Made by a program: the position numbers and the translations under genes. Positions 2,397-2,735 of a stretch of DNA of 64,000 nucleotides are shown piece after piece (the stretch's first letter is position 1; each line of letters opens with the position of its first letter). This DNA is from Capitulum mitella (lineage: Eukaryota > Arthropoda > Thecostraca > Pollicipedomorpha > Pollicipedidae). The stretch spans positions 10,994,802-11,058,801 of the forward strand of contig CP099839.1 in NCBI GenBank assembly GCA_030062745.1. Reading direction: 5' to 3'. The notes under the pieces were generated by a model. The model was not told the DNA's origin. It searched no databases and saw only the letters and a program-made list of their open reading frames with translations.

Positions 2397-2542
2397 AGGG
2401 TCGCGAATGCGTCAACTGCGGCGCCACGTCGACCCCGCTCTGGAGGAGGGACGGCAACGGCCACTACCTCTGCAACGCCTGCGGCCTCTACTACAAGATG
2501 AACGGCCAGAACCGGCCGCTGATCAAGCCCAAGCAGCGCATG
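2397..2542 (+). CDS. grn: GATA N-finger exon, copy A (divergent, alternative)
   Basis: This 146-bp exon encodes a complete GATA N-terminal zinc finger, C-X2-C-X17-C-X2-C, with Cys codons at 2408, 2417, 2471 and 2480. It begins with AG, completing a split Glu codon from the previous exon, and ends in phase 0 after an ATG (Met) codon at donor GTGAGT. Relative to the canonical finger encoded 47 bp downstream it carries five changes: Ala to Gly just before the finger, Thr to Asn in the knuckle loop (DGN for DGT), His to Tyr (LYYKM for LYHKM), and Arg-Leu to Gln/Met in the tail (KPKQRM for KPKRRL). The residues equivalent to the FOG-contact positions of vertebrate GATA1 (Glu, Val, Gly, Asp) are kept. 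Thirteen silent differences against five replacements suggest an old copy under purifying selection. It would bind DNA and cofactors like a normal N-finger, perhaps with altered affinity (inference). Confidence 0.88.
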
Positions 2543-2589
2543 GTGAGTGCTTCCGCCCGCTGGTGACCTGAGCTGACCTGGTCTTGCAG
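2543..2589 (+). other. 47-bp spacer between the two N-finger exons
   Basis: The spacer starts with a consensus donor (GTGAGT) and ends with TCTTGCAG. It contains a CTGAC branch-point-like motif only about 15 bases before the acceptor. Retaining it reads into a TGA at 2564-2566 after copy A. Removing it to join A to B would shift frame and hit a TGA at 2692-2694. Its shortness would also hinder spliceosome assembly across it, so it probably separates alternative exons and is not routinely spliced out. Confidence 0.75.
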
Positions 2590-2735
2590 AGGCGCGGGAG
2601 TGCGTCAACTGCGGCGCCACCTCGACCCCACTCTGGCGCCGGGACGGCACCGGGCACTACCTCTGTAACGCCTGCGGCCTCTATCACAAAATGAACGGCC
2701 AGAACCGGCCGCTGATTAAACCCAAGCGGCGACTG
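2590..2735 (+). CDS. grn: GATA N-finger exon, copy B (canonical)
   Basis: This second 146-bp N-finger exon has Cys codons at 2601, 2610, 2664 and 2673. From Arg-Glu-Cys to the tail KPKRRL its protein is identical to vertebrate GATA2/3. It starts with AG after CAG (2587-2589), so it takes the same split Glu codon as copy A, and ends in phase 0 at donor GTGAGT (2736). Joined to the exon at 9377 it gives [16 protein letters not shown], the invariant inter-finger linker of GATA1/2/3 proteins. In vertebrates this finger stabilises binding to double GATA sites and contacts FOG (Friend of GATA) cofactors. I take copy B to be the ancestral form because it matches distant homologues better than copy A does. 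Confidence 0.93.

Follow-up and report, generated by a model that had tools for sequence, protein, structure and literature searches.

The window, a stretch of 64,000 nucleotides of the Capitulum mitella genome, starts inside a GATA gene on the plus strand, here called G1 (Table 1). Between its upstream coding exon and its C-finger exon lie two exons, A and B, each 146 nt long, starting with a split glutamate codon (G/AG), ending in phase 0 and matching the Pfam GATA finger (2e-18 for A and 4.5e-17 for B). Both are bordered by AG before and GTGAGTGC after, which are consensus splice sites. The first-pass annotation had described two exons, each for a whole N-finger, with equal phases and common flanking exons, and the coordinates, lengths and phases were all confirmed. 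The two exons are identical at 126 of 146 nucleotides, and 14 of the 20 nucleotide differences are synonymous, leaving five residues that differ, a likeness that is not due to chance. They are thus adjacent homologous exons of equal length and phase, as in known mutually exclusive pairs. The donor-like GTGAGT directly after the conserved 3' exon makes a further exon downstream likely; read past its end, the frame of this exon runs into a stop at 23050-23052.

Table 1. Positions of the features discussed; plain numbers are positions in the window and C followed by a number denotes a contig of the genome.
Feature	Position	Strand	Remarks
G1 upstream coding exon	119..691	+	first ATG at 121; phase 1 end, G then GTAAGC
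Exon A, N-finger EGRECVNC..., sister-gene type	2397..2542	+	sequence and Pfam match
A-B intron, 47 nt	2543..2589	+	branch-point-like adenines at intron positions 24, 29 and 34 (by eye)
Exon B, N-finger EARECVNC..., ancestral GATA3-like type	2590..2735	+	sequence and Pfam match
G1 C-finger exon, common to A and B forms	9377..9502	+	
G1 conserved 3' exon, begins VNRPITMKKDGIQTRNRK...	22750..23040	+	donor-like GTGAGT directly after
G2, second GATA1/2/3-class gene, single N-finger exon, facing G1	C1:11141591-11122322	minus	
G2 N-finger exon P	C1:11138957-11138812	minus	
G2 C-finger exon	C1:11133885-11133760	minus	
Tandem myosin-head copies, four	C16:5450234-5453643		
Tandem myosin-head copies, three	C15:16425920-16428593		
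Tandem myosin-head copies, two	C14:17197973-17199021		

G1 encodes its two GATA fingers in different exons and has a conserved 3' exon after them, which is the arrangement of a two-finger GATA123 gene. For B joined to the C-finger, the best PDB matches are GATA-3 (4hc7; 1.2e-57), GATA-1 (1.6e-52) and GATA-4 (7.2e-52), and by sequence G1 is nearer to GATA1/2/3 than to GATA4/5/6, which supports the class originally proposed for it. B and the GATA-3 chain 4hc7 are identical throughout the 47-residue stretch that begins with RECVNC and finishes with KPKRRL. Judged by its residues, B is the ancestral, GATA3-like finger, and A is the finger type of a sister gene.

That gene, G2, lies outside the window and is new relative to the earlier annotation. 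Across all 16 contigs of the genome (477 Mb), the GATA family gave 11 matches, five on contig 1, five on contig 3 and one on contig 11. On contig 1, three matches belong to G1 (A, B and its C-finger) and two to G2 (P and its C-finger). The starts of A and P are 141,759 nt apart and the 3' exons of the two genes about 105 kb, on opposite strands. The five matches on contig 3 belong to three GATA456-like loci on the minus strand, which form a cluster of about 100 kb (C3:32755000-32862000), in agreement with the linked GATA456 cluster reported for arthropods in the excerpted part of PMC2383905; at one of them, L020, the C-finger is seemingly split by an intron. The match on contig 11 (C11:19878783-19878863, plus strand) is a partial GATA finger covering profile positions 9-35 with 28.7 bits.

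The anatomy of G1 bears on whether A and B can be used together. Five splice combinations were compared in a minimal model of the gene, closed by the stop just behind the end of the 3' exon at 23040. When just one of the two exons is included, be it A or B, the model reads through 381 codons. An early stop follows residue 273 when A and B are joined, residue 246 when the intron between them is also retained, and residue 221 when neither exon is present. The frame is thus broken both by joint inclusion and by joint skipping, as in a mutually exclusive pair. Furthermore, the A-B intron is short compared with the smallest of 30 estimated myosin introns in the genome, which is about 196 nt. These sizes were estimated from neighbouring myosin-head matches, of which 83 of at least 86 were used (65 of 203 first-look candidates scored), leaving out one long intronless match and two others. 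No more than 33 nt separate the donor of A from any plausible branch point of B. For mammals, the excerpts of PMC5740500 and PMC7969005 give about 50 nt as the least distance from a donor to its branch point, a figure that may not be that of this animal. As modelled, exclusion of A and B is enforced by the frame, and probably also by a steric clash, since the 47-nt intron sets the A donor near the B branch points. The mutually exclusive choice suggested by the first-pass annotation is thus partly supported: the anatomy (frame outcomes, intron size and consensus splice sites) fits it, and the splicing choice itself is what we infer from it. RNA folding of the region around the pair (2330-2800) was no better than that of shuffled sequences (z -0.77, equalled or bettered by 26 of 100 shuffles), and Rfam gave zero matches within the window at gathering scores.

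The same annotation had also proposed a tandem duplication of the N-finger exon. The homologous pair is real; plain tandem duplication does not fully account for it, however, given that A and the N-finger exon of G2 are nearly identical. A and P are identical at 142 of 146 nucleotides, with a run of 115 consecutive identical positions, whereas B and P are identical at 126 of 146, the same as B and A. Outside the exon, the identity between A and P is restricted to the splice cores (acceptor 3/3, donor 7/7), beyond which it falls to 4/17 and 2/20, and the similarity of their intron flanks is not above that of shuffles. The dS estimate is 0.083 for A-P, 0.50 for B-P and 0.60 for A-B; between G1 and G2, the C-finger exons have the lowest value (0.40), followed by the upstream exon (0.58) and the 3' exons (1.02). 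Among codons for identical amino acids (Met and Trp excluded), 2 of 45 differ between A and P, 11 of 41 between B and P and 13 of 42 between A and B, and the corresponding counts for G1 against G2 are 8 of 39 (C-finger exon), 20 of 49 (3' exon) and 18 of 67 (upstream exon). The codon differences between A and P are fewer than those in the 3' exon (Fisher, 2e-5), those between B and P (0.005) and those in the C-finger exon (0.04), and also fewer than in the pooled exons (hypergeometric test, 1.4e-4). Silent divergence in the A-P tract is thus far below that in the rest of the genes, as expected from interlocus gene conversion, with the upstream exon excepted in relation to B, since its dS of 0.58 is not above the A-B value of 0.60. 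The C-finger exons of the two genes also share 58 consecutive identical nucleotides after a strongly diverged start, a stretch that is possibly a second conversion patch but is weakly significant (p 0.038).

We infer that A and P came to share their sequence long after the split of G1 and G2, most simply by gene conversion limited to the exon. The exon is the sole place around A and P where the two genes are similar, and conversion would have been confined there. We consider it reasonably probable that the N-finger exon of G1 exists in two forms, one per mRNA, and that A and P were homogenized by such exon-confined conversion. According to this hypothesis, a G1 mRNA would include either B, with the ancestral finger, or A, with the derived type also present in G2, one at a time; inclusion of both or of neither would lead to an early stop, and the steric clash imposed by the short intron would add to the exclusion.

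We also considered the possibility that A is dead or seldom used, having been overwritten from G2 lately, and that G1 mRNAs contain B only. The pyrimidine fraction of the A acceptor (0.55) is the lowest of the five compared (B 0.60, P 0.70), and so few changes have accumulated since the shared state that an intact frame does not indicate selection: the present A sequence is young, with four differences from P, so its intact frame is weak evidence of use. Yet A has a consensus donor and acceptor, an intact frame and correct phases. With B as the outgroup, the two changes that likely occurred on the A side are synonymous, and the one replacement, an Ile-to-Thr change found in P alone, lies on the P side, although two changes are few. 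On balance, a dead or seldom used A seems rather unlikely to us.

Another explanation, which we regard as unlikely, is that A was copied once and lately from P into an intron of G1, rather than being an older exon that was overwritten; alternative splicing would still be possible in such a case. The low dS between A and P would fit a recent copy, as would the flanks of A and B, which have no similarity beyond the splice cores. However, some of the P intron would be expected to have come along, and a joint transfer of A and adjoining intron sequence was rejected on the grounds of the flank identities next to the splice cores. It is also difficult to see how an exon could have been inserted alone and yet have working splice sites. 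With no relation between the intron flanks, a recently transferred piece of DNA is unlikely and conversion confined to one homologous stretch fits better. In the introns of both genes adjoining A, B and P, none of 15 nucleotide comparisons for relics exceeded the top score among 20 shuffles, and a tblastn search for further N-finger exons gave nothing below E 0.28. An assembly or polishing artefact, in which a diverged A was partly overwritten by reads from P, might explain why the identity is confined to about 150 nt and unbroken over the central 115 nt, but is very improbable given that four differences persist and that the P flanks expected from a chimeric join are absent, and the tandem pair would stand regardless. 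Equally hard to credit is strong codon constraint holding A and P alike without recent sharing: although the conservation of finger exons and the identical run in the C-finger exons would speak for it, it was rejected because B encodes nearly the same protein and yet differs from P at more than a quarter of the codons compared.

If A and B are indeed alternatives produced by splicing and homogenized by conversion, their effects on the protein would stem from five differences, Gly/Ala, Asn/Thr, Tyr/His, Gln/Arg and Met/Leu (A/B). The glycine is also found in the GATA-3 chain and the final methionine in the GATA-1 chain; because both occur in these vertebrate GATA chains, the two changes are mild, and some of the five may be of no importance. 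The zinc-binding cysteines and the valine that contacts FOG are unchanged between A and B, and this valine of the N-finger is required for FOG binding according to the part of PMC8844375 excerpted. To judge from these residues, both forms probably keep FOG binding, unlike serpent, and the effect of the choice probably lies elsewhere. A candidate site is the junction with the next exon, which reads KRRL/S with B and KQRM/S with A, so that A lacks one basic residue, the arginine three before the serine. By a count along SAARRAGTS that locates Thr315 and Ser316 as well, this serine corresponds to Ser308 of mouse GATA3, and Akt1 phosphorylates mouse GATA3 at Ser308, Thr315 and Ser316, thereby releasing Hdac2 (PMC4829694, excerpt). 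It may be conjectured that A (QRM-S) is less well suited than B (RRL-S) as a kinase site and has the weaker basic arm, and that the loss of a basic residue before the equivalent of an Akt1 site is what the choice would change in the protein.

The closest known system is the exon pair 4A/4B of Drosophila serpent, which gives the SrpNC and SrpC forms. As is predicted for G1, the N-finger position of this GATA gene is filled by either of two mutually exclusive exons, and in serpent these are thought to derive from exon duplication (PMC8844375, excerpt). However, serpent is of the GATA456 class and its exon 4B is described in that excerpt as encoding no known motif, so that the choice is between finger and no finger, whereas both exons of G1 encode intact fingers in a gene of the GATA123 class; G1 has neither the fingerless alternate exon nor the class of the serpent type. 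In gene structure, G1 resembles the arthropod GATA123 gene (grain), which has the N-finger, C-finger and 3' conserved exons of the ancestral gene (PMC2383905, excerpt). The survey excerpted there gives one GATA123 gene in each arthropod genome surveyed; in contrast, there are two in this genome, one of them with two N-finger exons. Tandem homologous exons excluded by frame and by donor-branch-point proximity are likewise described for the 4a/4b exons of OGDH (excerpt of PMC7969005) and for a human set (excerpt of PMC5740500). Those are vertebrate genes with RNA support, and the G1 pair differs from them in that one of its exons is matched by an exon in a sister gene. Among the matches listed for openly licensed PubMed Central papers, no title concerned swappable N-fingers in a GATA123 gene, and the serpent paper (PMC8844375, excerpt) was the sole recognized one on alternative N-finger exons.

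The role of the GATA N-finger is still debated, and serpent permits a comparison of finger and no finger only. A swappable pair of the GATA1/2/3 class, five residues apart, would allow single-residue tests of this module within one gene. If our interpretation is true, RNA splicing could pick between two interchangeable copies of one DNA-binding finger in G1, a gene for developmental control, and the near-identity of A and P would show exon duplication and gene duplication exchanging sequence in one family. A bolder and more tentative hypothesis, which we hold with less than even confidence, is that G1 carries its own and its sister's finger as a pair selected by splicing, with conversion keeping the borrowed exon in step with G2. 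Splicing would then let G1 act as itself or with the N-finger of G2, making paralog identity a regulated choice.

Elsewhere in the genome, tandem copies of one stretch of the myosin head (profile positions 376-444) were found at three places, separated by gaps of 280-1434 nt. In the muscle myosin of arthropods, exons in such a tandem pattern are known to be mutually exclusive, and the copies are probably mutually exclusive myosin exons here too. Matches to the cuticle-protein domain, which mark the organism as an arthropod, number at least 150 in the genome (150 of 627 candidates scored).
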